Virus record (IMG/VR): IMGVR_UViG_3300031566_000152
Coordinates: 1 to 39,365 of that record
Strand: one strand, 5' to 3'
Length of the DNA: 39,365 bases
Origin: a virus
Every line of letters starts with the position of its first letter. Positions within the stretch are counted from its first letter, which is position 1. The notes beneath the pieces were generated by a model that did not search any database, was not told the origin of the DNA, and saw only the letters and a list, made by a program, of their open reading frames with translations. Both the position numbers and the translations under genes were made by a program. This document shows, in pieces, positions 4,433 to 36,009 of the stretch.

Positions 4433-6198
4433 TGGCTTTTGGAATCAGACCAGTGCGCGTCCCGATTGTGGGCGTGGATCAGTTCTCCAAGACGTTCGGA
4501 AAGATAGGCAAAAACCTGTCCCGATCAGGAGAGAAGATAGCACAAGTGGGATCATCGATGACCCGAAAAGTCACGTTGCCCATTATGCTAGCTGGCGCTG
4601 CTATTTTAGCCACAGCGGGATCCTTTGAAGCGTCAATGAAGGAAGTTCAGGTACTCACCACTACTTCCGGAGCGGCTTTCACAAAACTGTCCGACAGGGC
4701 GCGGGAGATGGGAGCAAATACCCAATTCTCCGCGTCCGAAGCTGCAAAGGCGATGACATTCTTGGCGATGGCCGGGTTGAGCGCTGATCAAACATTCACG
4801 GCGCTCCCCGGCACTCTTCAATTAGCTGCTGCGGCGGGGACGGATCTGGCGACGGCGGCTGATCTGGCTACTAATATCATGACCCCATTCGGGTATGGAG
4901 CGGAGCGGTTGACTGAGATCAATGACGTTCTGGCCAATACATTTACGCGAACAAATACGAATATGCTTCAGCTTGGGGAGGCAATGAAATACGTTGCTCC
5001 TGTTGCTAACGCAATGCATATTTCCCTTAATGAGACGGCGGCTGCAATAGGATTGATGGGCAATGCGGGTATACAGGCGAGTATGGCGGGAACGTCACTG
5101 CGCGGTGTGCTCTCCAAACTGGCTACTCCCTCCCGCGAAGCAATCAGGGTATTGTCGAAACTACGGATCAGAAAACAGGACGTGCTGGACAGCAGAGGGA
5201 ATGTCAAATCAATAATCGACGTGGTGAGAGCGCTGGAGAAGTCCGGCGCTTCAGCCGGGGATATGCTGGAGATATTTGGAGAGCGGGCAGGTCCTGGGAT
5301 GGCTGCGCTGGTCCAACAGGGATCCGGAGCGCTGGCAGATTTGACGGAGAAAACGAAGATCACCGGGAAGGCTGCGGAGATAGCGAAGATCAGGCAAGAG
5401 GGTTTATTTGGCCAATTAAAGCGGCTCCGGAGCGCGGCGGAGGAGCTGGCGATATCTATGGGTGAGGCGGGACTGCTGGAAGCGGCGACAAAACTTGCTA
5501 TGAAATTAATCGCTCTCACCCAGAGATTCCAGAAGCTGTCCCCGGAGACAAAGAGATGGTTGATGATTACTGCGGGGATCCTTGCGATCTTGGGGCCGAT
5601 ACTCCTGGTGGTGGGAAAGTTTATAGCATCTTTGGGATTTATCTTCATTGGTGTGGCGAAGCTGGCCCCCGTATTTCTATTTCTATTGAAGATATTTGGT
5701 TGGCTCCTCACTGGGTTCAAATTCCTATTTGTGGCTTTCCGGATATTCATGGGACTGTCGAAGTTGGCGTTGCTCAATCCCGTCACGTTGATCATAGCTG
5801 CGCTATTTATTTGGATCTACGTCATCAAGCAAATAGCGGACAATTGGGAAGCGTTGACAAGTGCGTTTGAGAGCAAAATGACTTTCTTCAAAACCTTCAA
5901 ATTTTTTCTTGCGGAGATAGCTGAAGCGCTGGCTGATATGTTCTCTAAAATCCCGCTATTGGGGAAGGGACTGTCAGAGCATTTCAGACTGGCGGCGGAG
6001 GGCTTCAGGATGGAGGGAGCTGAGACGGGGGCGGCGACAGCTGGCGCGGCAACAGTGGGCTCAGTCAATACGAATAATGCGCACGTGCTTGTGGAGGTTC
6101 AGAGCAAGGACGGTTCCCCAGTGAGAGCGAAACGGGAGAGCGGTGCTGATGTATCGTTGAAAACGGATACGGGCCTGATGTGGGCTCCGGGATTATAG
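4432..6198 (+). CDS. Tail tape measure protein
   Basis: 588 residues. It sets tail length and is packed inside the tube. Residues 60-240 match the TP901-type minor tail/tape measure core (ATAGSFEASMKEVQVLTTTS, then NTQFSASEAAKAMTFLAMAG and AGTSLRGVLSKLATP). Residues about 378-475 hold several hydrophobic segments (AGILAILGPILLVVGKFI, LAPVFLFLLKIFGWLL, VTLIIAALFIWIYVI), common in tape measures. At about 0.15 nm per residue the tail would be near 88 nm, short for a myovirus (inference). The start overlaps the stop of the frameshifted chaperone. Confidence 0.92.
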   Translation: MAFGIRPVRVPIVGVDQFSKTFGKIGKNLSRSGEKIAQVGSSMTRKVTLPIMLAGAAILATAGSFEASMKEVQVLTTTSGAAFTKLSDRAREMGANTQFSASEAAKAMTFLAMAGLSADQTFTALPGTLQLAAAAGTDLATAADLATNIMTPFGYGAERLTEINDVLANTFTRTNTNMLQLGEAMKYVAPVANAMHISLNETAAAIGLMGNAGIQASMAGTSLRGVLSKLATPSREAIRVLSKLRIRKQDVLDSRGNVKSIIDVVRALEKSGASAGDMLEIFGERAGPGMAALVQQGSGALADLTEKTKITGKAAEIAKIRQEGLFGQLKRLRSAAEELAISMGEAGLLEAATKLAMKLIALTQRFQKLSPETKRWLMITAGILAILGPILLVVGKFIASLGFIFIGVAKLAPVFLFLLKIFGWLLTGFKFLFVAFRIFMGLSKLALLNPVTLIIAALFIWIYVIKQIADNWEALTSAFESKMTFFKTFKFFLAEIAEALADMFSKIPLLGKGLSEHFRLAAEGFRMEGAETGAATAGAATVGSVNTNNAHVLVEVQSKDGSPVRAKRESGADVSLKTDTGLMWAPGL

Positions 6199-6209
6199 GG
6201 GAGAGTATT

Positions 6210-7427
6210 ATGGGATGGAAAGAGAGATTATTGCCGGCCAGTTTTCGCGGTGTTTCTTTTTACGTGAATGCGGCCAATAACACGTTCGGCCGTCGAATGA
6301 TCACTCATGAGTTTCCCCAACGTGACGTGCCGTATACGGAGGACTTGGGGCGGCAACCGAAGCACTATCAGATAGACGGATATTTGCTTGGTGATATGTA
6401 TATGGAACAGCGGGACAGGCTTCAGAGCGCTTGTGAGGATCAATCCACGGCAGGTGAATTGATTCATCCTTATTACGGGATATTGAAAGTGCTGTGCTCC
6501 CGGTTTGTCACTTTGGATAGTACGGAGGAGACGCGGATACTGCGCATTCAGATTGCTTTTGTCGAAGCTGGCTCTCTCCTGTTCCCTTCAACTTTTGTGA
6601 ATACTTCTTTTTCCAACGCCACCAACAAGCTATCCGTCATCGATCAGGCGCGGGCCGGGCTCAGGGCTCTCTATGATTTGACCCGTATCCCGGTAAATAA
6701 ATTCAGAGAAATACGCACCAATGTTCAATCGGCAATAGGAGCCATTGAGGATTATAGATTGATAGTTGCTTCTGTTGCTTCATACGGGAAGATGGTCAAA
6801 CGGACTCTGGCCGATATCGATACACTGATTCAAAGCGCAGATGATCTGGCTGAAGCGATGGCCGATTTGGTGACGTTTGGATCTTTCCCTGATGGATTGT
6901 TTCCCTCTGATCGCAATGATTTCGATACTGCCAATGAAGAAAATCCGGCGACTGAATTGAATAGCAGGGATCAATTCGATGAATTGAAATCTATGTTTGA
7001 ATGGGAGCCGGAGACAAGCACCAGCGAGCAATCGGACGCGGTGACCGCGTATATTCAGCAAATCAATATAGCCACAGGCGCTGGTTTTATGTCCGTGATG
7101 CCCTTCAGCAGTCTGGATGACGCGGAAGCATTCCAAGACATTATAGTGGGCCAGATCAATAGGGTGCTTTTGAATGATCTTCCGACAGATATTGCGGCGG
7201 CTTTCCGCGATCTAAAAGCATCAGTGATAGCTGATTTGAAAAAGCGTGCCACTACATTGGCCCGGCTCACCACGTTGACTCCTCCGGAGTCCGTCCCGGC
7301 CCTTGTGCTGTCCTTTAAGCTATACGGAACAGTGGATGCGGAACAGGATATCATTGATAGGAATAAAATTGATCATCCCGGATTTATCCCCGGAGGACAG
7401 GAAATTGAGGTATTGACCAGTGTCTGA
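6210..7427 (+). CDS. Mu gpN-like tail/DNA circularization protein
   Basis: 405 residues from ATG 6210, which has GGGGAGA just upstream; an in-frame GTG at 6180 lies inside the tape measure gene. The first 130 residues match the 'DNA circularization protein N-terminus' family: ERLLPASFRGVSFYV, RRMITHEFPQRDVPYTEDLG, KHYQIDGYLLGD and HPYYGILKVLC. Despite the family name, gpN is a baseplate hub component in Mu. The C-terminal half is helical and less conserved. The gpP-like gene follows with an 8-base overlap. Confidence 0.88.
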   Translation: MGWKERLLPASFRGVSFYVNAANNTFGRRMITHEFPQRDVPYTEDLGRQPKHYQIDGYLLGDMYMEQRDRLQSACEDQSTAGELIHPYYGILKVLCSRFVTLDSTEETRILRIQIAFVEAGSLLFPSTFVNTSFSNATNKLSVIDQARAGLRALYDLTRIPVNKFREIRTNVQSAIGAIEDYRLIVASVASYGKMVKRTLADIDTLIQSADDLAEAMADLVTFGSFPDGLFPSDRNDFDTANEENPATELNSRDQFDELKSMFEWEPETSTSEQSDAVTAYIQQINIATGAGFMSVMPFSSLDDAEAFQDIIVGQINRVLLNDLPTDIAAAFRDLKASVIADLKKRATTLARLTTLTPPESVPALVLSFKLYGTVDAEQDIIDRNKIDHPGFIPGGQEIEVLTSV

Positions 7428-9839: not shown

Positions 9840-10907
9840 ATGCCGTTCACCAGACCAACACTGATTACGATTATTCAACGTATTGAAGCGGATATGGAGC
9901 AGCGGCTCACTGGGACTGTCCCGTTGCTTGCTGTGGGGCTCCTCCGGATATTGGCCAGAGTATTTGCGGGAGCAATCCACCTTCTGTATGGACTCCTCCA
10001 GTGGCTTGCCAAACAGCTATTCTATGATACAGCGGAGGAAAGCGAATTGGACAACCATGCCCGGCGATGGGGCTTGACCCGGAAGGCGGCTGAGTTTGCA
10101 ACAGGCACAATCACATTCACTGGAGTTGATGGGGCGAGTATTGCGACTGGGACATTGGTGGTGGATGAAGATGGAGTTGAATTAGAAACTACAGCCAGCG
10201 GAATAATAGCGGCCGGGACTCTCACGTTGGCCGTCGAAGCTGTGGAGCCGGGGGATGCGGGAAATTTAACGGCAGCCACTGTATTGATTATGATAGAGCC
10301 GATGAGTGAAATAACTGAAGTTGAAGTTGTATCAATGGCCGGGGGGTTGGATCAGGAGAGCGACAGCGATTTGGCCGGAAGGATATTTGAGCGCATATCT
10401 ACTCCTCCTATGGGCGGGACTGCTGATGATTTTGAACGATGGGCAAGGGAGGTGTCTGGAGTGGCGGATGCTTGGGCCTTCCCGAATAATCCGTCATTGG
10501 GGACGGTGTCAATAGTAGCGAAGGCGCTGGGGGTTGACCCTGTTCCGGCTCCCGCTCTCCTGTCTGCCGTAGAAACAAACGTGAATGCAAAAAAGCCAGT
10601 CACGGCCGGGACAGCAATTGAGCCTATTGTCAGTAAGTTGATAGATATTACAATTGAGATTGATACTGATTATACCCCGTATGAAAACGCTATTGAATCT
10701 AATCTGTCGGATTTCTTCGGAAGCGAAGCGGCCCCCGGCGGGACAATTCTTTGGAGTCAATTGAATAACGCTATATCAACATCAGGCATTCCGGATTATG
10801 AGATCACGCAGATCACTGTCGCCGGCACTCCTGTCTCCTTGGCTGATATCGTTTTCACAGGTTTTGAATATCCTGTTTTGGATGATGTATTCTGGACTTT
10901 GATTTAA
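9840..10907 (+). CDS. Baseplate J-like protein (Mu gp47)
   Basis: 355 residues, standard length. Baseplate J features: an N-terminal helix (LITIIQRIEADMEQRL), LYGLLQWLAKQLFYDTAEE, ELDNHARRWGLTRK, a beta domain with GTLVVDEDGVE, the EVVSMAGGLDQESDSDLAGR block, and IFERISTPPMGGTADDFERW. These proteins form baseplate wedges (T4 gp6 relative). GGGGATAATATT precedes the ATG. Confidence 0.94.
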   Translation: MPFTRPTLITIIQRIEADMEQRLTGTVPLLAVGLLRILARVFAGAIHLLYGLLQWLAKQLFYDTAEESELDNHARRWGLTRKAAEFATGTITFTGVDGASIATGTLVVDEDGVELETTASGIIAAGTLTLAVEAVEPGDAGNLTAATVLIMIEPMSEITEVEVVSMAGGLDQESDSDLAGRIFERISTPPMGGTADDFERWAREVSGVADAWAFPNNPSLGTVSIVAKALGVDPVPAPALLSAVETNVNAKKPVTAGTAIEPIVSKLIDITIEIDTDYTPYENAIESNLSDFFGSEAAPGGTILWSQLNNAISTSGIPDYEITQITVAGTPVSLADIVFTGFEYPVLDDVFWTLI

Positions 10908-10922
10908 TAGGCGGAGAAAAAT

Positions 10923-12542
10923 ATGGCATATGAAGAATTTGAGCCGTCTCAAAAATACTCCTGTTTAGAGTATTTGAAAATGCTCCGACGGCTATTGCCC
11001 AGCGGGCCGCTATGGGATCGGCTCCGGATCGCTCCGTGCTTGGCGGTGACTCCCCGGTATTGGGTGAAGGTTGCTGAATCTCCCTCCAGCGCTCCGGCCG
11101 GGTTGGAAGTCATGGTCACGCAGACTTATGGCGGCCGTATTTGGATGGGGACACGTCACACAGACGGAACAGGGAGACTATGGCAATGGTTCGGATCGGA
11201 GTTGGAGATATCCCTTGCGGCAGATACTTATTTGGGGCAGGAATTGATCTATGCGCTGGAGCCTTATGGCGGGTATTTAATGGTGGGAACGGGGAGAACA
11301 GGAGCACTATTGAAGCATACTCCCGGCTCAGGTTTTTGGTCAGTTGAGGCTCCTATGACCAGTGGTCAAACTGATCTTTTTTCCCTTCGCACATCTTTCT
11401 ATCCCGGCCCTCAACCAATTCTTTATATCGGAACATATCCCAACGGACTCCTTCTGAAGAATGATATTTGGGCACCAGGTTCAATGACTCCTGTTCTCCC
11501 CCAAGCGGCAGGGAAATGGACCATACACTACATGGATATACTCAACAATAAGTTATACGGAGTGACGGAGAGTATGGCGCTATTTGAGTGGGATTTCGCG
11601 GCTGGCACGTGGACTGTGCTTCAGGACGGGTGGATGGATACTATAGGTGGATGGGCGCTCAGGGCCTTCAACGGTTCTGTTTTTGTCGGTACACGGGATC
11701 ATGCAAGGATCGGATATTGGGATGGGGCTTCAATTGTAGAATTGCCCCGCTCTCCCTATTTGGATTATGATAGTTCTCTTCATTTTCTCCGGGAACATAA
11801 TGGAAAATTATATGGTGTGACGATGGCGGCTATCTCCGGCGCTCCTCCAACTATCGAAGGCGGATCATATCTAATTGAAGTTGATTCCAATTTCAATTAT
11901 CAGATATCGGCTTTGACCCCGACAGCCAATGGGATTGGTATGGCTGGATTGGAAAGCCTTAATGGAAAGTTATACGGTATCCAAACTGATGGGACAATAT
12001 GGGAAGCGGTGGAGAGCCCGGAAACGTCATGGTTGGGGCGGTTATTGTCTTGCTTTGCTTCGGAGCTATCCCGTTTTGAAGCTGATGTGGTTAGGTTGCA
12101 GCGGGAAAGCGTCCCCGGACTGTCCGTTGAATTGCTATCGGACTGGGAGCGGATAGCAGGGTTGCCTGATATATGTACTCCTCCCTCATTGACGACAGCC
12201 CAGAGGCAAGCCAATGTTCACACAAAAATATATTTGACTTATTCAGGGCTCAGCAGTCAATTCTTTATTGATTACGCGGCAGGGCTGGGCATCACTATCA
12301 CGATATCAGATGTATCGGGCGGGGATTTATTCCGCACAGGACATAAGACTGATGGAAGGATTCAGCGAGTCACTCAAATGCCCCCTCCGGACGGTATTGA
12401 TGATTCAAGACTAAATTCATCAAGCGTTCAATATCAGTGGGTAGTTGATGTGGTATCGGATCCGGGAGGAAATAGGAGCCTGATGGAATGCGTATTCAAT
12501 AAGATAAAACCAGCGTGGACTCAAGTGATATTCACGCCATAA
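10923..12542 (+). CDS. Tail protein gp48-like (DUF2313) with inserted beta-propeller
   Basis: 539 residues, against roughly 200 for ordinary gp48/YmfQ-type proteins. The N-terminal 35 residues (YLKMLRRLLPSGPLWDRLR) and the C-terminal 170 (SELSRFEADVVRLQRES, LLSDWERIAGLPD, TTAQRQANVHTKI, FIDYAAGLGITITISDVSGG) are the two halves of the gp48 family. Between them, residues about 60-365 hold seven copies of a blade motif ending in a conserved strand: GGRIWMGTRH, GGYLMVGTGR, QPILYIGTYP, NNKLYGVTES, NGSVFVGTRD, NGKLYGVTMA and NGKLYGIQTD. This predicts a seven-bladed beta-propeller on the tail tip, perhaps for receptor or polysaccharide binding. The fibre gene follows. Confidence 0.82.
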   Translation: MAYEEFEPSQKYSCLEYLKMLRRLLPSGPLWDRLRIAPCLAVTPRYWVKVAESPSSAPAGLEVMVTQTYGGRIWMGTRHTDGTGRLWQWFGSELEISLAADTYLGQELIYALEPYGGYLMVGTGRTGALLKHTPGSGFWSVEAPMTSGQTDLFSLRTSFYPGPQPILYIGTYPNGLLLKNDIWAPGSMTPVLPQAAGKWTIHYMDILNNKLYGVTESMALFEWDFAAGTWTVLQDGWMDTIGGWALRAFNGSVFVGTRDHARIGYWDGASIVELPRSPYLDYDSSLHFLREHNGKLYGVTMAAISGAPPTIEGGSYLIEVDSNFNYQISALTPTANGIGMAGLESLNGKLYGIQTDGTIWEAVESPETSWLGRLLSCFASELSRFEADVVRLQRESVPGLSVELLSDWERIAGLPDICTPPSLTTAQRQANVHTKIYLTYSGLSSQFFIDYAAGLGITITISDVSGGDLFRTGHKTDGRIQRVTQMPPPDGIDDSRLNSSSVQYQWVVDVVSDPGGNRSLMECVFNKIKPAWTQVIFTP

Positions 12543-21136: not shown

Positions 21137-21339
21137 GAGTGACAATAGAGCATCGTGAGTCCTTTGAAGCTATGGTGAAAACTATTAAAGCCCGTGCTAT
21201 GGCTGTGGAGACTAAACAGTATTCACCCATATGTCCAATATGCAATGATCTTTGGCTCACTGAGCACGGAGAGCAAACGGTTGAATACTGTTCCTGTCCC
21301 GGAGCGCGGAGGTTTTTTGGTGAAACAATTAAGAATTGA
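21133..21339 (+). CDS. Small Cys-rich protein
   Basis: 68 residues, ATGA overlap with the resolvase gene and GGGGGAG before the start. CPIC (residues 34-37) and CSC (53-55) could bind zinc around a WLTEHGEQ turn. The N-terminus is helical. The end overlaps the next gene by 20 bases. No family recognised. Confidence 0.55.
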   Translation: MRVTIEHRESFEAMVKTIKARAMAVETKQYSPICPICNDLWLTEHGEQTVEYCSCPGARRFFGETIKN

Positions 21340-21853
21340 ATACTGCCGACGTTGCCGGCTCTCCCAGTGGCGGAGAATGGTGGTGATCGGGCGGGGATCG
21401 CTTCCTTGCGAATTGTTGATCATAGGTGAAGCCCCCGGAAAGACTGAGAATTTGACCGGGATCGCATTCCAAGGAAGGGCGGGGAAATTATTGGATAAGA
21501 TGTTACACGAAGCAGGGCTGGCATCTTTGTCAGTCTATATCACAAATACGGTACTATGCCGGCCGTGCGATGGATGGAAAGAGGAGAACAGGGAGCCGTT
21601 GCCCGATGAGGTGCTGGCGTGCGCTGAGAATGTAGTCAGGATCCTTCGGAGAGCGCAGCCCAAATATGTAGTGCTGGCGGGGGAGACTGCGAAGCGATAT
21701 TTTAAAAAGGATTTCCCAGATGCGGTTTCTATACAGCATCCTGCATATATTCTCAAGACAGGCGCGGAGAGCAGCCCCCGGTATCTGGAGAATATTAGAA
21801 AACTTCAAACCATTGAGCGGAGGAGGAAATATGAAAAAATATCATCCCGCTAA
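21320..21853 (+). CDS. Uracil-DNA glycosylase, family 4-like, Fe-S
   Basis: 177 residues from GTG 21320, seven bases after GGAGG (21308-21312). Four cysteines placed as in family 4/5 enzymes: C9 and C12 (CRRC), C80 (TNTVLCRP) and C101, for a 4Fe-4S cluster. Active-site motifs: GEAPG (36-40) and HPAY (140-143). It removes uracil or related bases from DNA. In a phage predicted to carry modified thymine it may remove misincorporated dU while sparing the modified base (inference). Confidence 0.88.
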   Translation: MKQLRIEYCRRCRLSQWRRMVVIGRGSLPCELLIIGEAPGKTENLTGIAFQGRAGKLLDKMLHEAGLASLSVYITNTVLCRPCDGWKEENREPLPDEVLACAENVVRILRRAQPKYVVLAGETAKRYFKKDFPDAVSIQHPAYILKTGAESSPRYLENIRKLQTIERRRKYEKISSR

Positions 21854-28963: not shown

Positions 28964-29713
28964 ATGCCTATCAGAAAGCGCGGTTCAGTCCCTTCCCTTC
29001 CTTCGGTTTCTACAGTTCTCCCGGTCAATCCGGTTCTGCCCTCTATGGCTGTGGCCCCACGTGCGGCAAACCATATTGCGTATAATCCGGGCCGATATCC
29101 TCACGTGCCCGTTGAATTGGATTTCGTTTCTGTCCCTATTGACAGCGTGAGACTTGATCCGATGAATCCCCGTAAGAATGATATGGCCGCAAAAAAGCTG
29201 GCCCCGCTCCTCCGGCTTAATGGATTCAGGAAGCCAATATCAGTGGATCAAGACGGTGTGATCAGGGCCGGGAACACGGCATGGAAAGCGGCGAAGATAT
29301 TGGGCATGACTCATATTCCTGCTGTTCGGTCATCCTATACCACTGAGAGGGACAAAGTGAATTATACGGTTTCCGATAATGAAGCCGGGACATATTCGGA
29401 GTGGGATGACGAGATATTGATGCAATTGAAATCTGGAGGGTTATTGAATCAAGATGCATCCGGGTTCAACGATAACAAATGGAAGGGGTTGGAGCTATCG
29501 GAGGAGATGCCCCCGGCGCTGCAGGAGGTTGAGATAAAAGGTGATCATAAGGAATTGGGTGATTTTATTGTGGTGCGGTTCCCGGATTCTGAGGCTCTGG
29601 CGGAGTTCAAATTGCGGATCGGTATGGGTATCAATGAACGGGCAATCGAAGCGGCCGCATTCATAAGCGCTGTCCAGGGCATGACGGCGGTTGATACAGG
29701 AGTTCCATTTTGA
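28964..29713 (+). CDS. ParB/Srx-fold protein
   Basis: 249 residues, AGGAGGCACAA before the ATG. After a Pro/Val-rich lead, residues 50-130 match the ParB N-terminal fold: VSVPIDSVRLDPMNPRKN, then LLRLNGFRKPISVDQDG, VIRAGNTAWKAAKILGM and HIPAV. The usual G-x-x-R box reads G-N-T-A-W. The C-terminal half is unassigned. There is no ParA and no helix-turn-helix, so plasmid partition is unlikely. ParB-fold proteins occur in phage DNA-modification loci. It overlaps the PLP gene start by four bases. Confidence 0.8.
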   Translation: MPIRKRGSVPSLPSVSTVLPVNPVLPSMAVAPRAANHIAYNPGRYPHVPVELDFVSVPIDSVRLDPMNPRKNDMAAKKLAPLLRLNGFRKPISVDQDGVIRAGNTAWKAAKILGMTHIPAVRSSYTTERDKVNYTVSDNEAGTYSEWDDEILMQLKSGGLLNQDASGFNDNKWKGLELSEEMPPALQEVEIKGDHKELGDFIVVRFPDSEALAEFKLRIGMGINERAIEAAAFISAVQGMTAVDTGVPF

Positions 29714-30522
29714 TAAAATCCAATACTCCTTTTGAGATATATCAGATAGGTGACCGACAAAACATATGGGTGAAGCGGGAGGACTTGTGCTGCGAACAGG
29801 CAAGATTTTCCAAGATACGGGGAGTTGAAGCGCATCTGCGCTCAGTCTCAGCTTCTACAATCGGTGTGCTGGATACCCGGCACAGCAAAGCCGGATGGGG
29901 TGTGGCGTATATTGCTCAGCAGATGGGGAAACGGTGCGTGGTATATTATCCTTCATTCAAAGATATACGCGGGCTCCGGCTGTCCCAAGTGAAAGCGAAG
30001 GAATGGGGAGCTGAATTGGTTGGACTACCTGCGGGGCGCTCCTGCATTCTATACCACAGGGCTTGCCGCGATCTGGCAGAGCGGTTCCCCAATAGTTATA
30101 TGTTGCCCAATGCGTTGAAACTATCGGAGAGCGTAGAGGAGACAGCCAATGAATTGATAGCGTATACTCCCAGGGAGATGCTTATTGATAAAGCGCTTTG
30201 GGTGGTTTCTGTCTCCTCCGGGACGCTGGCGGCGGGGGTGATCAAGGGGATAGAAACTATTGGTGCGAAGCCAACAGTGATCCTTCATATGGGGTATAGC
30301 AGGAAACGCGAAGCGCTCGTGAAGTATATCCAGAAATACGCGGCCGGGGATCGCTTCCGTATACTCATGGTTGATGAAGGATACAGCTATGCGGATGCCG
30401 TGCGGTTCCCCTGTCCCTTCCCCTGCAATCCGTTTTATGATTTGAAGGCGTGGCGCTGGCTGTACAAAAAGGCGGAGCAGATGAGCTATGATCCAATAAT
30501 CTTTTGGAATATAGGAGAGTGA
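29710..30522 (+). CDS. PLP-dependent enzyme, fold type II (TrpB/ACC deaminase-like)
   Basis: 270 residues with a TTG start overlapping the ParB-like stop; AGGAG is seven bases upstream. Fold-type-II features: VKREDLCCEQARFSKIRG with the likely PLP lysine in F-S-K-I-R-G, the VLDTRHSKAGWGVAYIAQQM segment like the substrate loop and helix, and SSGTLAAGV as the phosphate-binding loop. The length is short for TrpB (about 400). Next to the transferase and kinase genes, it most likely decarboxylates or rearranges the amino acid attached to thymidine in DNA (inference). Confidence 0.82.
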   Translation: MIKSNTPFEIYQIGDRQNIWVKREDLCCEQARFSKIRGVEAHLRSVSASTIGVLDTRHSKAGWGVAYIAQQMGKRCVVYYPSFKDIRGLRLSQVKAKEWGAELVGLPAGRSCILYHRACRDLAERFPNSYMLPNALKLSESVEETANELIAYTPREMLIDKALWVVSVSSGTLAAGVIKGIETIGAKPTVILHMGYSRKREALVKYIQKYAAGDRFRILMVDEGYSYADAVRFPCPFPCNPFYDLKAWRWLYKKAEQMSYDPIIFWNIGE

Positions 30523-30524
30523 AC

Positions 30525-31835
30525 ATGAAGCGGAAAACTGAATATCAAGATTTTCTTCAAATGGAGCGTCCCGACAGAAGGCCGGGTGGGGTTGATCCGA
30601 AGTGGGGGAGGTTTGAGTATTGGGATTTGGGGATGACGCGGAATGCGCGGGAGGAGAACAAAAGCACATACAAAGTTTTTCTTGACCCGGCTCCTCACGT
30701 TATTCTTGACCAGAACGTCCCGTTGAGAGGATGGTATAAATCAAAAGCGGAGCCGAAGGGGAAGCGGGCGCGGCCCTGTTTCACCGAAGCGCTCCTGACT
30801 CAGCCCTATGGAGGAGCTTGCCCGGTGAGGTGTCAATTTTGTTATATCAATAATGGTATACGGGGGTATCGGGGAAGCGGTGTGACTGTGGTTGATCCTG
30901 AATATCCTTTGAAGATAGAGCGGCAGCTATCCAAAATGCGTTTCGGGTGGAATGCATATATTTCAAGTTTCACGGAGCCATTCCAGAAACTGGAGGAGAA
31001 ATTTCACAACACTGAGCAGCTATCTGAAATCGTGACAAGCTATGGGCTGCCCCTGTTCTATCTCACGCGGCAGGTTCCCCCGGACTGGGCTTGGAAGTAT
31101 TTGAAACTGAGCAAATACAGCTATCAACAATTCAGCATCATCACTCCGGATCGGGAAGTATACAGGCGGCTATCTCCCGGAGCGGCCCCGTTGGATGATC
31201 TTCTGAAGGTGATTGCGGAGATGAGGAAAGCCGGAATATATACGTCAATCCAAATCAATCCAATTCTCCCCGGAATTATCCAGCCGGAGGAGATCATGGA
31301 GTTGATACGGGAGTTGGGGAAAGCCGGAGCCCGTCACGCCATTTTCAAGTTTGTGGAAATTGTATCCCCAGCGGCCGGAGCTATGACAACTAAGATGCTG
31401 CAACTATTTCCCGGAAAGCGGGGGGAGGAGTTTGCGGCGCTGTTCTCCGATACTATTGGGGGACTCCGGACAGTGCAAGAAACATATCGTATAAGGGCTC
31501 TGCGGAGATTCCAGGTGACGTGCGCGGAGAACGGAATGACTATGGGACTTTGCTATGAATATAAATATACCCGTGATAATCAGGGAAACGTAGTTGATAA
31601 GACAGGAGAGTCACTGGGGCGGGAGTTCTGCACAGCTGATCAATGCCACGGGTTTCGCATACCGATACACGTGAAGGTGAAAGGTAAATTTCAGCCATAT
31701 GAGGGTTGCCCCCCGTCGGGCTGTCTATATTGTAAAGAACAAACGGAGGGCCAGAGCGTCCCCTGCGGCAGTCCCTTCCTCCAGGAAGCCACAGCCCTCC
31801 GGCCTTCGGATTATAACAATTGGAGGAGGGGATGA
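30525..31835 (+). CDS. Radical SAM enzyme 1, spore photoproduct lyase-like
   Basis: 436 residues from ATG 30525 with AGGAGAG before it. The 4Fe-4S/SAM motif is C99-x3-C103-x2-C106 (GACPVRCQFCY). A TIM-barrel pattern follows (WNAYISSFTEPFQKLE, YGLPLFYLTRQVPPDW, YTSIQINPILPGII). The C-terminal 90 residues hold further cysteines (FCTADQC, GCPPSGCLYC, VPCG) that could bind a second cluster or zinc. By analogy with M6-type phages it may isomerise an N-linked aminoacyl thymidine to a C-linked one (inference). The RMF-like gene starts at its stop. Confidence 0.85.
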   Translation: MKRKTEYQDFLQMERPDRRPGGVDPKWGRFEYWDLGMTRNAREENKSTYKVFLDPAPHVILDQNVPLRGWYKSKAEPKGKRARPCFTEALLTQPYGGACPVRCQFCYINNGIRGYRGSGVTVVDPEYPLKIERQLSKMRFGWNAYISSFTEPFQKLEEKFHNTEQLSEIVTSYGLPLFYLTRQVPPDWAWKYLKLSKYSYQQFSIITPDREVYRRLSPGAAPLDDLLKVIAEMRKAGIYTSIQINPILPGIIQPEEIMELIRELGKAGARHAIFKFVEIVSPAAGAMTTKMLQLFPGKRGEEFAALFSDTIGGLRTVQETYRIRALRRFQVTCAENGMTMGLCYEYKYTRDNQGNVVDKTGESLGREFCTADQCHGFRIPIHVKVKGKFQPYEGCPPSGCLYCKEQTEGQSVPCGSPFLQEATALRPSDYNNWRRG

Positions 31836-32071
31836 GCAGCACATTCAGGGCAATACAGATAGCTGGCTATGCGGCGCGGAAAGCAGGTGCTATGATGTGG
31901 GACTGTCCCTATGATAGTAAATCACCACTATTTAAGATATGGGAAATAGGATGGAAGGCGGCAGAGCATGAAGAGAGTAAGAATGGGAGTGCTGAGCAAA
32001 ATGAAGGATTCTCCCCTATGGCCATGGTTCAAACTATTCGCAGAGCTACACAAAATCAGCGGGGACATTGA
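31832..32071 (+). CDS. RMF/CrpP-like small protein
   Basis: 79 residues, ATGA overlap with the radical SAM gene and GGAGGAGGGG before the start. Residues 10-45 resemble the ribosome modulation factor/CrpP family: a small-residue helix (IAGYAARKAGAMMWD), C-P-Y, then a F-K-I-W-E-I-G-W-K-A-A box. RMF-like domains bind ribosomes; phage copies have unclear roles. The second half overlaps the transferase gene in another frame by at least 70 bases. Confidence 0.6.
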   Translation: MSSTFRAIQIAGYAARKAGAMMWDCPYDSKSPLFKIWEIGWKAAEHEESKNGSAEQNEGFSPMAMVQTIRRATQNQRGH

Positions 32072-32936
32072 TCCAGTTTATCCGGTTCTGCGGAAGGTAC
32101 ATGAACTGAGGAACAATAGCCAGGAACAGTCCATCTGGCATGCTCTCCTCTATGTGACATGGTACAATTTAGGGAGCGCTGAGAAAGTGCTTCAGCGTTG
32201 GCCACTTCCCTCCCCAGTGGTCATGGAGGAAGCTGGATTGATCGGTCATATTTCTTGGGGTGGATTGAAGACAGGAGTGGAGCGGCGCGGATTCCGGGGG
32301 AAGGACAATGAAAAGCCATTCCAGATGATCAACGGGCTTTTAGCTTCTGTTTGGAAAAACTACAGGACGTTGGAGGAGTGGTTGACGGAAACAACGAAGC
32401 CGGGAGGACGGTTGGGTTGGCAGCGGCTCTATATCGATTTCCAAGGCTATCCGGGAAACGGGACGTGGGCCGCGTATAAGTGGTGCGATTTGACGAAAAA
32501 TGTATTGGGGTATAAGATCACCAGCCCCGATATTGGACTGGGAGGAGGGGGGCGCAATGCTGGGCCTGTGCCTGGGTTGTCGCTGATGTCAGGGGAGCCG
32601 TGGGAGCGGTGCGCGCGGGATGAGGAATTTCAAGAGCAGTTCTACAGAGAAGCGCGGGAAGATGGATTGCCGTGGGATGGGTTGGAGGAGATGGAAACGT
32701 GCTTATGTGACTTCAATTCTACATATAAGGGCACGTATTATTTGGGCCATGATATTGATAAACAGATGGAAGATATACGGGACTGTCCGAAGGAATATTG
32801 GGAAGCGCGGCGGCTATCCTTCCACCCAGAGTATTTGGGAGAGATCCAGGGATGGGACGGGGTGAGGAAGGACAGGAAGCCCAAATTCAAGAGATGGCTT
32901 GAAGCTCAGAAAACTATAACGGGGAGCGATATATGA
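31968..32936 (+). CDS. Amino acid:DNA transferase (alpha-glutamyl/putrescinyl thymine pyrophosphorylase family)
   Basis: 322 residues if ATG 31968 is used; ATGs at 31983 and 32001 are also in frame and no ribosome binding site decides. The protein resembles the aGPT-PPlase family, with a helical DNA-glycosylase-like fold: WPWFKLFAELHKISGDIDP, SIWHALLYVTWYNLGSAEK, ASVWKNYRTLEEWL and GNGTWAAYKWCDL. Family members replace the pyrophosphate on activated 5-hydroxymethyl-dU in DNA with an amino acid or polyamine. The kinase gene that makes the substrate follows with an ATGA overlap. Which amine is used cannot be read from the sequence. Confidence 0.8.
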   Translation: MKRVRMGVLSKMKDSPLWPWFKLFAELHKISGDIDPVYPVLRKVHELRNNSQEQSIWHALLYVTWYNLGSAEKVLQRWPLPSPVVMEEAGLIGHISWGGLKTGVERRGFRGKDNEKPFQMINGLLASVWKNYRTLEEWLTETTKPGGRLGWQRLYIDFQGYPGNGTWAAYKWCDLTKNVLGYKITSPDIGLGGGGRNAGPVPGLSLMSGEPWERCARDEEFQEQFYREAREDGLPWDGLEEMETCLCDFNSTYKGTYYLGHDIDKQMEDIRDCPKEYWEARRLSFHPEYLGEIQGWDGVRKDRKPKFKRWLEAQKTITGSDI

Positions 32937-33463
32937 AATTGACATTGGTTGGGATCGGAGGAGTGCCCGCAACAGGGAAAAGCCGAATAGTATCAGAGAT
33001 TGTGAGGAGGGAGGGATTGAACCGTATTTTCAAATACGGCACTCTGGTGTTCCATACCCGTGATAAGCGGGATTTATACGTGCTGGGGAAGTATGAGGAG
33101 GGGGAAGCCTTCCCCGGAACGGATAGACTGAGCATGGCCGTGATTAAAGATGCGCTGGGCTATGTGCACAGACTCCTTTTTACTTCAGCGGAGATTCCGG
33201 CCCGTATGATATTTGAAGGTGATCGGCTTTTCTGCAATCGGTTTCTTGATGAAGCGGAAGCGGATGAAAAGTATTTTTTGATCCTGGCCACTGCGACTCA
33301 TATCTTGTCGAAGCGACGGGAGGAGCGCAAACAGTCAGAGGTATTTCTGAAGGGGCGGGCCACGAAGATACGGAACATGATGACGCGGCCTGATGTGGTA
33401 GTGATGGATCACAATGAGCCGAAGGATACTGAATTCATTATTAAATATGTAATGGGGAGGTAA
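32933..33463 (+). CDS. 5-hydroxymethyluridine DNA kinase (P-loop)
   Basis: 176 residues, GGGAG before the ATG. Walker A is GGVPATGKS (residues 8-16). Later features of the phage 5-hmdU DNA kinase family are FEGDRLFCNRFLDE and a helix RREERKQSEVFLKGRATKIR. The family phosphorylates 5-hydroxymethyl-dU within DNA, giving the pyrophosphate substrate of the transferase. The ATGA overlap with the transferase gene supports co-expression. A general nucleotide or tRNA kinase is the less likely alternative. Confidence 0.82.
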   Translation: MKLTLVGIGGVPATGKSRIVSEIVRREGLNRIFKYGTLVFHTRDKRDLYVLGKYEEGEAFPGTDRLSMAVIKDALGYVHRLLFTSAEIPARMIFEGDRLFCNRFLDEAEADEKYFLILATATHILSKRREERKQSEVFLKGRATKIRNMMTRPDVVVMDHNEPKDTEFIIKYVMGR

Positions 33464-33468
33464 GTGGT

Positions 33469-33783
33469 ATGGGTATCGGAATTATTCAATGGGCTCCGGG
33501 AGAGAAAGAGAAGTTGGCGCAGATCAAGGATTATATCCGTGAGGATTTGGACCGTGCCTATACGTCGAACAATGGCAATATTCACACGGCCATTGATGTT
33601 GTTCAGGTGAAGCTGAGGCGCGTTGCTCCCCGCGATCCGCAACAGCGGAGGAAATATGAATTCATAGCCAACGAAGCAGGGGAGGAGTGGCTGGCGGGGA
33701 TCGGACAGCCCCGCAAGGTCAGTCCATCCCCTATTTTTGATGTGATACGTGGTATGGTGTTCGGGGGGCGGAGGAGGGGATGA
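33469..33783 (+). CDS. Unknown small protein in modification cluster
   Basis: 104 residues, GGGAGG eight bases before the ATG. Helical N-terminus (EKEKLAQIKDYIREDLDRAY), then a basic middle (KLRRVAPRDPQQRRKYEF). No family recognised. It overlaps the next gene (ATGA). Confidence 0.6.
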   Translation: MGIGIIQWAPGEKEKLAQIKDYIREDLDRAYTSNNGNIHTAIDVVQVKLRRVAPRDPQQRRKYEFIANEAGEEWLAGIGQPRKVSPSPIFDVIRGMVFGGRRRG

Positions 33784-33995
33784 AGCGGAAGCGACAGAAA
33801 CGGACAGGTGACCCGATGCTATCCCGATGGCTACGGGAGTATTGCCCGCGTGGGTGTGGTTGCCGGTTGAGGACGGACGGAAAGTTGATTTGGTGTTCAT
33901 ATATTCATTGTAATTTTTCACAGGAGGTACATGATGGCGGATTTGGGAGATTTACTCAGAGAGTTGATGCACAAAGCGGAGGAATGCCAGTGTGA
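33780..33995 (+). CDS. Small zinc-ribbon protein
   Basis: 71 residues, GGAGGAGGGG before the ATG. CPRGCGC (residues 22-28) and CSYIHC (39-44) form a zinc ribbon with the strands CRLRTDGKLIWC between them. The basic lead (KRKRQKRTGDP) suggests nucleic-acid contact. The last 64 bases overlap the following gene. Confidence 0.58.
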   Translation: MKRKRQKRTGDPMLSRWLREYCPRGCGCRLRTDGKLIWCSYIHCNFSQEVHDGGFGRFTQRVDAQSGGMPV

Positions 33996-34296
33996 TAGTT
34001 GTCGGCAGGAGCGCGGATTGCCTCCCCGGCCCCGGCGGGATATACGGGAGTTGACCATGGAGGAGATGGAGGAGATGACGTTGATCAAAGCGCTTCGACG
34101 GGAAGCGGAAGCGATGAATGAGAGGGCGAAGTCAGTTTTGAATGAAGCCAATGCCCGCAGGGAAGTATTCTGGGCAAAGATCGACAGGAAGTATAATGGC
34201 TATGATAAGAATTTCACGATTAGCAAAGATAACATGCTTCAGGAGGTTTCAGATATCCCAGAGAATAAGGAGGAGGAGGAGAAATCAAATGGCTGA
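33934..34296 (+). CDS. Coiled-coil protein with Cys motif, unknown function
   Basis: 120 residues; ATG 33934 is six bases after AGGAGG, ATG 33931 is an alternative. CQCDSC (residues 18-23) could bind metal or form disulphides. Residues 36-85 are a long charged helix (ELTMEEMEEMTLIKALRREA), probably a coiled coil, with an acidic end. No family recognised. Confidence 0.6.
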   Translation: MADLGDLLRELMHKAEECQCDSCRQERGLPPRPRRDIRELTMEEMEEMTLIKALRREAEAMNERAKSVLNEANARREVFWAKIDRKYNGYDKNFTISKDNMLQEVSDIPENKEEEEKSNG

Positions 34297-34645
34297 CACA
34301 AATGGTGGAAAAGTTGAGAGCCTTCCCAAGTGGGCTCAGGGGTATATCAAAAGTTTGGAGCGGGAACGTGAGACGGCTGTGAATGCGCTGTTCGACTATA
34401 CAAAGAATCAAGAGCCATCTCAATTTTATTCTGATTCCTTCCTACGCTTGGGGCAAACCAGTATGGTGAAACAGTATATTCAAGCAGATAGTGTGACTTG
34501 TGAGATCAAGGGACTGTCTGTGGATATGCGTGTTCATGACGATAATTCCATATCAATTATGTTCAGCGAAAAATATGGATATGAGGCGGTTTTGGTTCCC
34601 TTTGCCAGTAATTCATTTAGAATAAAAAGGATAAAAAGGCAATGA
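34289..34645 (+). CDS. Phage protein of unknown function (LPKWAQ type)
   Basis: 118 residues from ATG 34289, overlapping the previous stop by eight bases; GGAGGAGGAG lies upstream. It begins with LPKWAQGYIKSLERERE, a pattern I recall from many small phage proteins. The second half is beta (VTCEIKGLSVDMRVHDDNSI, then AVLVPFASNSFRIKRIK). Function unknown. Confidence 0.6.
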   Translation: MADTNGGKVESLPKWAQGYIKSLERERETAVNALFDYTKNQEPSQFYSDSFLRLGQTSMVKQYIQADSVTCEIKGLSVDMRVHDDNSISIMFSEKYGYEAVLVPFASNSFRIKRIKRQ

Positions 34646-36009
34646 AAAGAAGGCGCATCACTCCCACTGTTCCGGCCCCGGCCCCGGCCCCGGCTCCGGT
34701 TCCTGATCGGTTCTATCCATCTCCACGTTGGAGTGGGGAAATACTGGATTGTTCGATGCCGATGACGTTTGATCAGTTCTCTCGCTGTTCATATGACTGT
34801 CTATATTGCTTCTCCTATTTCCAGCGTTCAGTGCGTCATCTCAATCCACTACAGAATAAGGACGGGAAACGGGAATTGTATACACATGAGGCCCCGTATC
34901 CAGTGAACGTCCCGGAAATCAAAGCTATTTTTTCCGGAGAGAAGCGCAGTCAATTCTCCGGGTACATAGATGAAAAGGTGTGGATGCAGTGGGGAGGGCT
35001 GTCAGATCCTTTTGATGAATTTGAGCGGAAGCAAGGCGTTGGGCTGGAGCTGCTGAGGTATTTCTCCGCTCTCCAGTATCCTATCTGTTTCAGTACGAAG
35101 GGGACGTGGTGGGTATATGATGAACGGTATATGGAGCTATTCCGGCGGAACAGAGAGCGCTGGAATGTGAAATTCAGTATTATCAATCTGGACGCGGAGC
35201 GCTCCCGGAAGATAGAGCGCGGTTGCCCTCCCCCAGCGGATAGATTGAAAGCGATGAGGGAACTATATGAATCAGGGTGCAGTGCCACCCTGCGGCTCCG
35301 GCCGTTTATCATAGGGCTGTCGGACAGGGATGATGAGTATTTGGAGCTGATCGCTCAGGCACATGAACAGGGAGCCACGGCTCTCTCCACTGAGTTTTTC
35401 TGTCTGGAGGGAAGGATAATTGACCGGACGCGATATGACAAGATGAGTGAGGTGCTGGGGTTTGACCTGTTGGATTTCTACAAGCGGAACAGTCCGAAGC
35501 GGGGAGGGTATATGAGGCTCAACTGGAAAATCAAGGAGCCCTATGTCAACAAGATGGAACGACTATGCCGGACGCTGGGAATGCGGTTCTATGTCTCCGA
35601 TGCGCATCACAAGGATCGCTGTGCGACGGGGAGCTGCTGCGGGCTCCCGGAGGGCTCCAACTACCATCGAGGACAATTCACTCAGGCGATAGTGATTGCG
35701 CGGCAGCGCGGTGAAGTCCGGTTCTCCGATATTGAACCGTATATTCTCCGGTGCTTTAAAAATATTAAAGCGACTCAAGCGACTAATGGACTGAATTTTA
35801 TGCGCGGAAGTCCGGGACAGCGGGCGCGGTTCAAAGACTTCACAATATATGATATGTTTCGATATTTTTGGAATGAGCCGCAAGACGCTAAAAGTCCTTA
35901 TAAGTATTTCGCCGGAGCCCTCCGGCCCGACAGAATAGACGGCGACGGAAACGTGGTTTATAGGTTTCATGGCTATCAGGAGCCAGCAAAGGGGGGCGAG
36001 CTTATTTGA
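34642..36009 (+). CDS. Radical SAM enzyme 2, spore photoproduct lyase-like
   Basis: 455 residues, ATGA overlap with the previous gene. A PAPAPAPAPVP lead is followed by the cluster motif C49-x3-C53-x2-C56 (RCSYDCLYCF). The pattern MQWGGLSDPFDEFERK and YPICFSTKG is like the SPL/YgaQ-type radical SAM branch. Near the C-terminus DRCATGSCCGLPEG adds three cysteines. It is the last gene before the second control element. It is related in type to enzyme 1 but clearly distinct in sequence, so it probably does a different step on the same modified base (inference). Confidence 0.82.
   Translation: MKRRRITPTVPAPAPAPAPVPDRFYPSPRWSGEILDCSMPMTFDQFSRCSYDCLYCFSYFQRSVRHLNPLQNKDGKRELYTHEAPYPVNVPEIKAIFSGEKRSQFSGYIDEKVWMQWGGLSDPFDEFERKQGVGLELLRYFSALQYPICFSTKGTWWVYDERYMELFRRNRERWNVKFSIINLDAERSRKIERGCPPPADRLKAMRELYESGCSATLRLRPFIIGLSDRDDEYLELIAQAHEQGATALSTEFFCLEGRIIDRTRYDKMSEVLGFDLLDFYKRNSPKRGGYMRLNWKIKEPYVNKMERLCRTLGMRFYVSDAHHKDRCATGSCCGLPEGSNYHRGQFTQAIVIARQRGEVRFSDIEPYILRCFKNIKATQATNGLNFMRGSPGQRARFKDFTIYDMFRYFWNEPQDAKSPYKYFAGALRPDRIDGDGNVVYRFHGYQEPAKGGELI

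Follow-up and report, generated by a model that had tools for sequence, protein, structure and literature searches.

Phages are known to obtain the 5-hydroxymethyl pyrimidines of their DNA through two kinds of enzyme, folate-dependent nucleotide hydroxymethylases and the O2-dependent TET/JBP oxygenases, and TET enzymes cannot work without oxygen. Spore photoproduct lyase (SPL, also called SplB) is a radical S-adenosylmethionine (SAM) enzyme whose substrate is thymine in DNA. In the 5-(2-aminoethyl)-deoxyuridine (5-NedU) pathway of Pseudomonas phage M6, glycine is reportedly attached, after which a radical SAM enzyme isomerises it and a pyridoxal phosphate (PLP) enzyme removes the carboxyl group. 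Both M6 and Pam3 have a gene for a thymidylate-synthase-like protein, and Rhodococcus phage Tonitrus has one for a TET/JBP-like oxygenase (PMC11955845). Here we describe a gene cluster in the 39,365-bp linear phage contig IMGVR_UViG_3300031566_000152 from IMG/VR, hereafter called the window, which is an incomplete contig. The cluster contains two radical SAM genes, rSAM1 and rSAM2, and we read it as a phage thymidine-hypermodification pathway in which rSAM2 takes the first step by hydroxylating, or equivalently activating, the thymine methyl group in DNA without O2. We give this reading a probability of roughly 0.68.

A preliminary description of this DNA had proposed a thymidine-hypermodification cluster with an M6-type pair of PLP and radical SAM enzymes, an amino acid:DNA transferase (ADDT) and a DNA-base kinase. 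Profile matches and M6 homologues support this identification of the six-gene set. A chance arrangement is ruled out because the cluster is conserved in other contigs and its genes are homologous to those of characterised phages.

Sources of the hydroxymethyl base in related clusters

There is no match to the TET/JBP model (PF12851) or to the thymidylate-synthase-like model (PF00303) in the 39 kb of the window. The cluster is thus one that lacks a known source of 5-hydroxymethyl-deoxyuridine (5-hmdU), and this point, which the preliminary description missed, is the key to the finding. There are 74 rSAM2 loci in IMG/VR and a few more in genome sequences. Among 50 contigs of up to 60 kb that carry this family, TET is found in 0/50 and PF00303 in 0/50.

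The same exclusion is seen when the samples are gathered in other ways. An ADDT query, with contigs already known to carry rSAM2 left out, yielded 50 contigs in which rSAM2 was then found in 0/50. TET is present in 43 of these and PF00303 in five, while none has both and two have neither. There are also 13 tested contigs that carry both ADDT and rSAM2, and none of them has TET or a thymidylate-synthase-like gene (Fisher p 1e-11, uncorrected for relatedness). Among 46 contigs of a sample anchored on the TET-associated glycosyltransferase (TAGT), TET occurs in 24 and rSAM2 in 11, with no overlap. Because of the relatedness of the contigs, some of which are fragments, the p-values overstate the evidence; the direction agrees from all three anchors.

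The genes that would act later in the pathway are found with each type of source, whether known or proposed. The rSAM1 and PLP pair accompanies the PF00303 type in M6, Pam3, L181, L196, L198 and L203, and it accompanies TET in L178, L180 and L188 (L189 has rSAM1, with the PLP gene undetected). The pair is also found with rSAM2 in the window, L041 and L076, and L039 has rSAM1 without the PLP gene. On the other hand, rSAM2 itself is present in dozens of contigs that lack PLP, rSAM1 and ADDT genes, and is interchangeable with TET/JBP and with the dUMP-hydroxymethylase type. For these reasons rSAM2 is most likely the first-step enzyme.

This assignment departs from the preliminary description, which took the second radical SAM enzyme for an extra late step leading to an undescribed base. 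Such late tailoring of the attached amino acid, with the 5-hmdU gene lying outside the contig, is suggested by the position of rSAM2, which comes last in the cluster and next to the kinase and ADDT, and by the fact that the window is a fragment. In addition, a remote homology between rSAM1 and rSAM2 (hhalign 6.5e-11) makes related chemistry possible. However, most rSAM2 loci are without ADDT, rSAM1 and PLP genes, and some lie beside a glycosyltransferase with none of the three. Moreover, rSAM2 never occurs with TET or thymidylate-synthase-like sources in ADDT or TAGT contigs, and it has no tblastn match among 50,697 sequenced phages, M6-type ones included. We have rejected the late role as an explanation of the family, and consider it unlikely, although it fares best among the alternatives.

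The partners of rSAM2 point to the group that it might supply, since TAGT and the kinase both depend on a hydroxyl on the base. Among 72 rSAM2 loci, 32 have TAGT nearby and 20 have the kinase and/or ADDT; none has both. There are 12 partner changes on the rSAM2 tree, of which at least nine are forced by well-supported branches. The clearest example is the pair of L062, which has TAGT, and L086, which has the kinase, wherein the rSAM2 proteins are 93% identical, the neighbours are alike and one gene is swapped. The family assignments of these two partners are weak in Pfam and backed by PHROGs, and the rSAM2 of L059, which has a strong TAGT match, is 89% identical to that of L086. For a glycosyltransferase and a kinase to act on the same substrate, it must carry a nucleophile, and in known systems this role falls to the hydroxyl of 5-hydroxymethyl-dU or -dC (PMC12783734). 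A shared hydroxyl is the simplest explanation of the swap.

Perhaps rSAM2 functionalises the thymine methyl in some other way, for example as a formyl group or another group with a non-hydroxyl nucleophile, which the kinase and TAGT then accept. Exclusion and position show only that rSAM2 supplies what TET or the dUMP hydroxymethylase supplies, and a SPASM-type radical SAM gene, present in 16 of the 72 loci, may be counted on the same side. Yet TET and thymidylate-synthase-like systems employ these same kinase and TAGT families on hydroxymethyl bases, and the one-gene swap described above again favours the hydroxyl. This explanation is therefore also improbable, slightly more so than late tailoring. 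As for the base that is modified, C5-cytosine methylases are found in 5/50 rSAM2 contigs, which disfavours 5-methylcytosine as a general substrate and makes thymine the likely one.

There are four loci (L086, L091, L055 and L080) with kinase and rSAM2 but neither ADDT nor TAGT detected nearby. The final base of this type might be a phosphorylated hydroxymethyl-dU, or its transferase might be one that is not recognised. No ADDT was found near L009 or L080. L004, which by blast seemed to have kinase and rSAM2 only, was removed from this type upon finding a divergent ADDT (PF18724 4e-19).

The rSAM2 family and its predicted reaction

The rSAM2 proteins make up a new family in its own right. Seven cysteines are invariant in 54/54 diverse rSAM2 members. 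Three of these (C49, C53 and C56) form the cluster motif and the other four are C37, C254, C332 and C333. An AlphaFold model of rSAM2 was obtained with high confidence (predicted local distance difference test score, pLDDT, 91; predicted template modelling score, pTM, 0.90). When the model is compared with the PDB by Foldseek, ranks 1-6 are all SPL (best E 4e-7), and every fold match with E up to 1e-3 is a radical SAM enzyme. These fold matches, together with the invariant cluster motif, place rSAM2 in the radical SAM superfamily.

The likeness to SPL is one of fold. The TM-score is 0.44 by query with 16% identity, there is no SPL model among the NCBIfam matches at E <= 0.1, and the four further invariant cysteines distinguish rSAM2 from SPL. 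A sequence search against the PDB gave nothing credible. There are weak matches to the radical SAM families PA0069 (5e-13) and Rv2578c (3e-11), whose function is unknown, but rSAM2 falls far below their curated cut-offs (49 vs 360 bits and 43 vs 430 bits). Being a radical SAM protein, rSAM2 is not a TET/JBP oxygenase as defined by PF12851, and functional replacement alone is claimed here.

The proposed route is as follows. A 5'-deoxyadenosyl radical generated by rSAM2 would abstract a hydrogen from the thymine C5-methyl group in DNA, and the resulting allylic thymine radical would be oxidised, perhaps via a second Fe-S site formed by the four extra invariant cysteines. Addition of water would then give 5-hmdU with no need for O2. 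The kinase would activate the hydroxyl of 5-hmdU, and ADDT would exchange the activated hydroxyl for an amino acid, probably glycine by analogy with M6. Subsequently, rSAM1 would convert the N-linkage into a C-linkage, and decarboxylation by the PLP enzyme would yield 5-(2-aminoethyl)-dU or a close relative.

A divergent enzyme that escaped detection, such as another 2-oxoglutarate-dependent oxygenase or a host enzyme, could instead supply 5-hmdU, with rSAM2 only assisting. The searches relied on Pfam TET and thymidylate synthase models applied to fragmentary contigs, and two ADDT contigs have none of the three known or proposed sources. Nevertheless, the same models matched 48/50 ADDT contigs without rSAM2, and their silence is almost entirely confined to rSAM2 contigs, which leaves this explanation quite improbable. 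Least probable of all is that rSAM2 is an SplB-like DNA-repair enzyme or an unrelated neighbour, since the SPL fold matches and the bacterial relatives in the uncharacterised PA0069/Rv2578c group have to be set against an association with ParB-like genes and kinase/ADDT or TAGT that recurs in dozens of divergent contigs, and against a TET and thymidylate-synthase exclusion that this idea leaves unexplained.

Several observations weigh against rSAM2 as the first-step enzyme. To our knowledge, there is no direct precedent for hydroxylation of a base methyl group by a radical SAM enzyme. Most of the contigs are fragments, and the absence of TET and thymidylate-synthase-like genes is consequently statistical and does not hold genome by genome. 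There are 20/72 rSAM2 loci with no recognised partner module, and the Pfam matches of the window kinase (PF18751) and rSAM2 (PF04055) are both below cut-off. Contig G006 carries a divergent rSAM2-like protein (37% identity) without the C332/C333 motif, and has a PF00303 match on the same contig. The two ADDT contigs that lack any known source are G066 and G059, the latter apparently a truncated sibling of G058. Finally, the anaerobic ribonucleotide reductase NrdD (PF13597), used as a host marker, was found in 1/51 and is uninformative, and so lends no support to anaerobic hosts.

In G066 (248,579 bp), locus L191 has ADDT and rSAM1, and no TET, thymidylate-synthase-like gene or rSAM2 was found on this contig. 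It possibly uses a further source of 5-hmdU.

The window cluster and its neighbours

The six genes are all on the plus strand, as had been described, and each has profile support (Table 1). The preliminary description also stated that most of them overlap. There are indeed 4-nt overlaps at three junctions, namely ParB/PLP (TTGA), ADDT/kinase (ATGA) and preceding ORF/rSAM2 (ATGA). However, rSAM1 most likely starts at the ATG at 30525, two nucleotides past the PLP stop codon, and not at 30504, so that this pair has no real overlap. Some 1.2 kb of small ORFs, absent from that description, separate the kinase from rSAM2. Contig G010 is near-identical to the window and breaks off within ADDT. Elsewhere in the window there are tail genes (recognised by eye) and genes for a family A DNA polymerase, a primase and a PD-(D/E)XK nuclease. 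The replication module includes a uracil-DNA glycosylase (UDG)-superfamily protein with homologues in G001, G002, G006 and G007.

Table 1. Features of the window, with positions counted from its first nucleotide
Feature	Position	Strand	Support
UDG-superfamily protein, replication module	21194-21853		homologues in four other contigs
ParB-like protein	28964..29713	+	phrog_620 9e-21; PF02195 E 5e-4
Fold-II PLP enzyme (PALP-type), M6 gp052 homologue	29710..30522	+	PF00291 5e-12; phrog_7093 2e-75
rSAM1, SplB-like radical SAM, M6 gp053 homologue	30525..31835	+	PF04055 7e-9; phrog_9252 3e-108
ADDT, amino acid:DNA transferase	31968..32936	+	PF18724 (ADDT) 3e-8, above cut-off
P-loop DNA-base kinase, Walker A GVPATGKS	32933..33463	+	phrog_800 2e-7; PF18751 3e-4, below cut-off
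Small ORFs between kinase and rSAM2, ~1.2 kb	33469..34645	+	last one (34142-34645) is DUF7239
rSAM2, SPL-like radical SAM family	34642..36009	+	PF04055 3e-4, below cut-off; intact CxxxCxxC; 54-member family

Both the PLP enzyme and the SplB-like radical SAM enzyme expected of an M6-type 5-NedU pathway are present. The PLP protein is 52% identical to M6 gp052 over its full length, and the SKxRG motif is invariant across the window, M6 and Pam3. rSAM1 is 42% identical to M6 gp053, with an invariant CxxxCxxC motif and many conserved cysteines in the C-terminal part. By analogy with M6, rSAM1 is predicted to be the isomerase of an attached glycine and the PLP enzyme its decarboxylase. The rSAM1 homologue at L030 (G008, 4482-6887) has 802 codons, and its match is split near window residue 113, adjoining CxxxCxxC. 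The insertion is probably an intein within the radical SAM active-site motif.

The preliminary description had made its case depend in part on profile searches of the kinase and transferase, and both proteins fall in fitting families. The transferase is of the aGPT-PPlase/ADDT type, and a profile of ADDT relatives matches the solved glycinyltransferases 8z2m (E 8e-13) and 25qc (E 4e-13). The kinase belongs to the same PHROG as M6 gp054, which Pfam calls a 5-hmdU DNA kinase, and its Walker A motif and profile similarity to the Tonitrus kinase further identify it as such, while the Pfam match is sub-threshold. It is closer to the Tonitrus kinase (hhalign 1e-15) than to that of M6 (6e-7), and its group is the one found beside ADDT in TET-type phages, nearer the Ploopntkinase3 branch. 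Of 76 rSAM2 loci, 56 have a ParB-like gene no more than 3 kb from rSAM2, and the same holds for TET in 51/66 TET loci of the ADDT set. The ParB-like protein may be a DNA-targeting partner that guides the enzymes to DNA.

Additional genes accompany rSAM2 in other contigs. The SPASM-type genes (median 311 aa) mentioned above lie beside it mostly in TAGT-type clusters (L043, L044, L063, L070-L075, L077, L088, L089, L095, L103, L115 and L116), and their products possibly modify the sugar or base further. A class II glutamine-amidotransferase-like gene is located directly upstream of ADDT in L006, L040, L052 and L085 (Pfam matches on two), which suggests ammonia or amide chemistry in those clusters. 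There are seven loci (L065, L113 and five more) with a GNAT acetyltransferase gene between ADDT or kinase and rSAM2, an arrangement consistent with acetylated amino-acid hypermodifications. In L024 (6608-8314), on a contig that also has ADDT, kinase and rSAM2, a dUTPase is split by an intein that contains an HNH endonuclease.

Hosts, significance and relation to known systems

For the core rSAM2 family, the clues point to Clostridia (goat cecum) and Selenomonadaceae as hosts, and for distant members to Spirochaetaceae and Methanobrevibacter. There are also four loci (L092, L093 at 10001-11239, L096 and L097) in which the frames of rSAM2 relatives are broken by TGA codons only, at 12-16 sites each that align to conserved glycines. 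Reading of TGA as glycine is a code of Gracilibacteria and Absconditabacteria, and, from these alignments, the same system seems to be present in phages of such TGA-recoded bacteria. The few host clues that can be read point to anaerobes, which fits with oxygen independence.

We consider it probable, although with somewhat less confidence than the role in the window, that rSAM2 is the first family to hydroxylate the thymine methyl group in DNA without oxygen. It would be the radical SAM equivalent of TET/JBP for anaerobic conditions, and would add a third, non-homologous route to 5-hydroxymethyl bases. In phages that infect anaerobes (Clostridia and Selenomonadaceae, and possibly also methanogens and TGA-recoded bacteria of the candidate phyla radiation), this route would feed hypermodifications with amino acids, glycosyl groups and other additions. 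Phages of oxygen-free habitats could probably carry out thymine decoration chemistry in this manner, and the family makes directly testable the open question of how phages of strict anaerobes build TET-style modifications. If true, radical SAM chemistry would gain a new reaction, in which a methyl C-H bond of a DNA base is hydroxylated, and 5-hmU could be written into DNA with an oxygen-independent tool. In addition, rSAM2 would mark a large set of modified genomes that are hidden by annotations such as "DNA repair photolyase" or hypothetical protein.

The M6 5-NedU cluster (gp051-gp058) resembles the window cluster in that ADDT, PLP enzyme, SplB-like radical SAM enzyme and phrog_800 kinase are all homologous. 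By analogy, the final base is predicted to be of the known M6 type, 5-aminoethyl-dU, and not a new one, and the novelty would lie in the apparently oxygen-free start. M6 differs in having the thymidylate-synthase-like gp058, HMUDK_hel (PF18723, gp055) and Nmad5 (gp056). Neither of the last two was found among the window proteins scanned, the contig being incomplete and its ORFs scanned in part. The window has a ParB-like gene and rSAM2 instead, with no PF00303 match.

TAGT systems are related through the glycosyltransferase family, which occurs next to rSAM2 in 25/50 rSAM2 contigs, in most cases along with a ParB-like gene. They differ from the rSAM2 contigs in that the latter are without TET and have C5-cytosine methylases only in the five contigs noted above. 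Genes 1-8 of Tonitrus, representing the TET/JBP type, share with the window the ParB-like, ADDT and kinase genes in the same order, and the kinases belong to the same branch. However, the window has rSAM2 in place of the O2- and 2-oxoglutarate-dependent TET/JBP-like oxygenase of Tonitrus.

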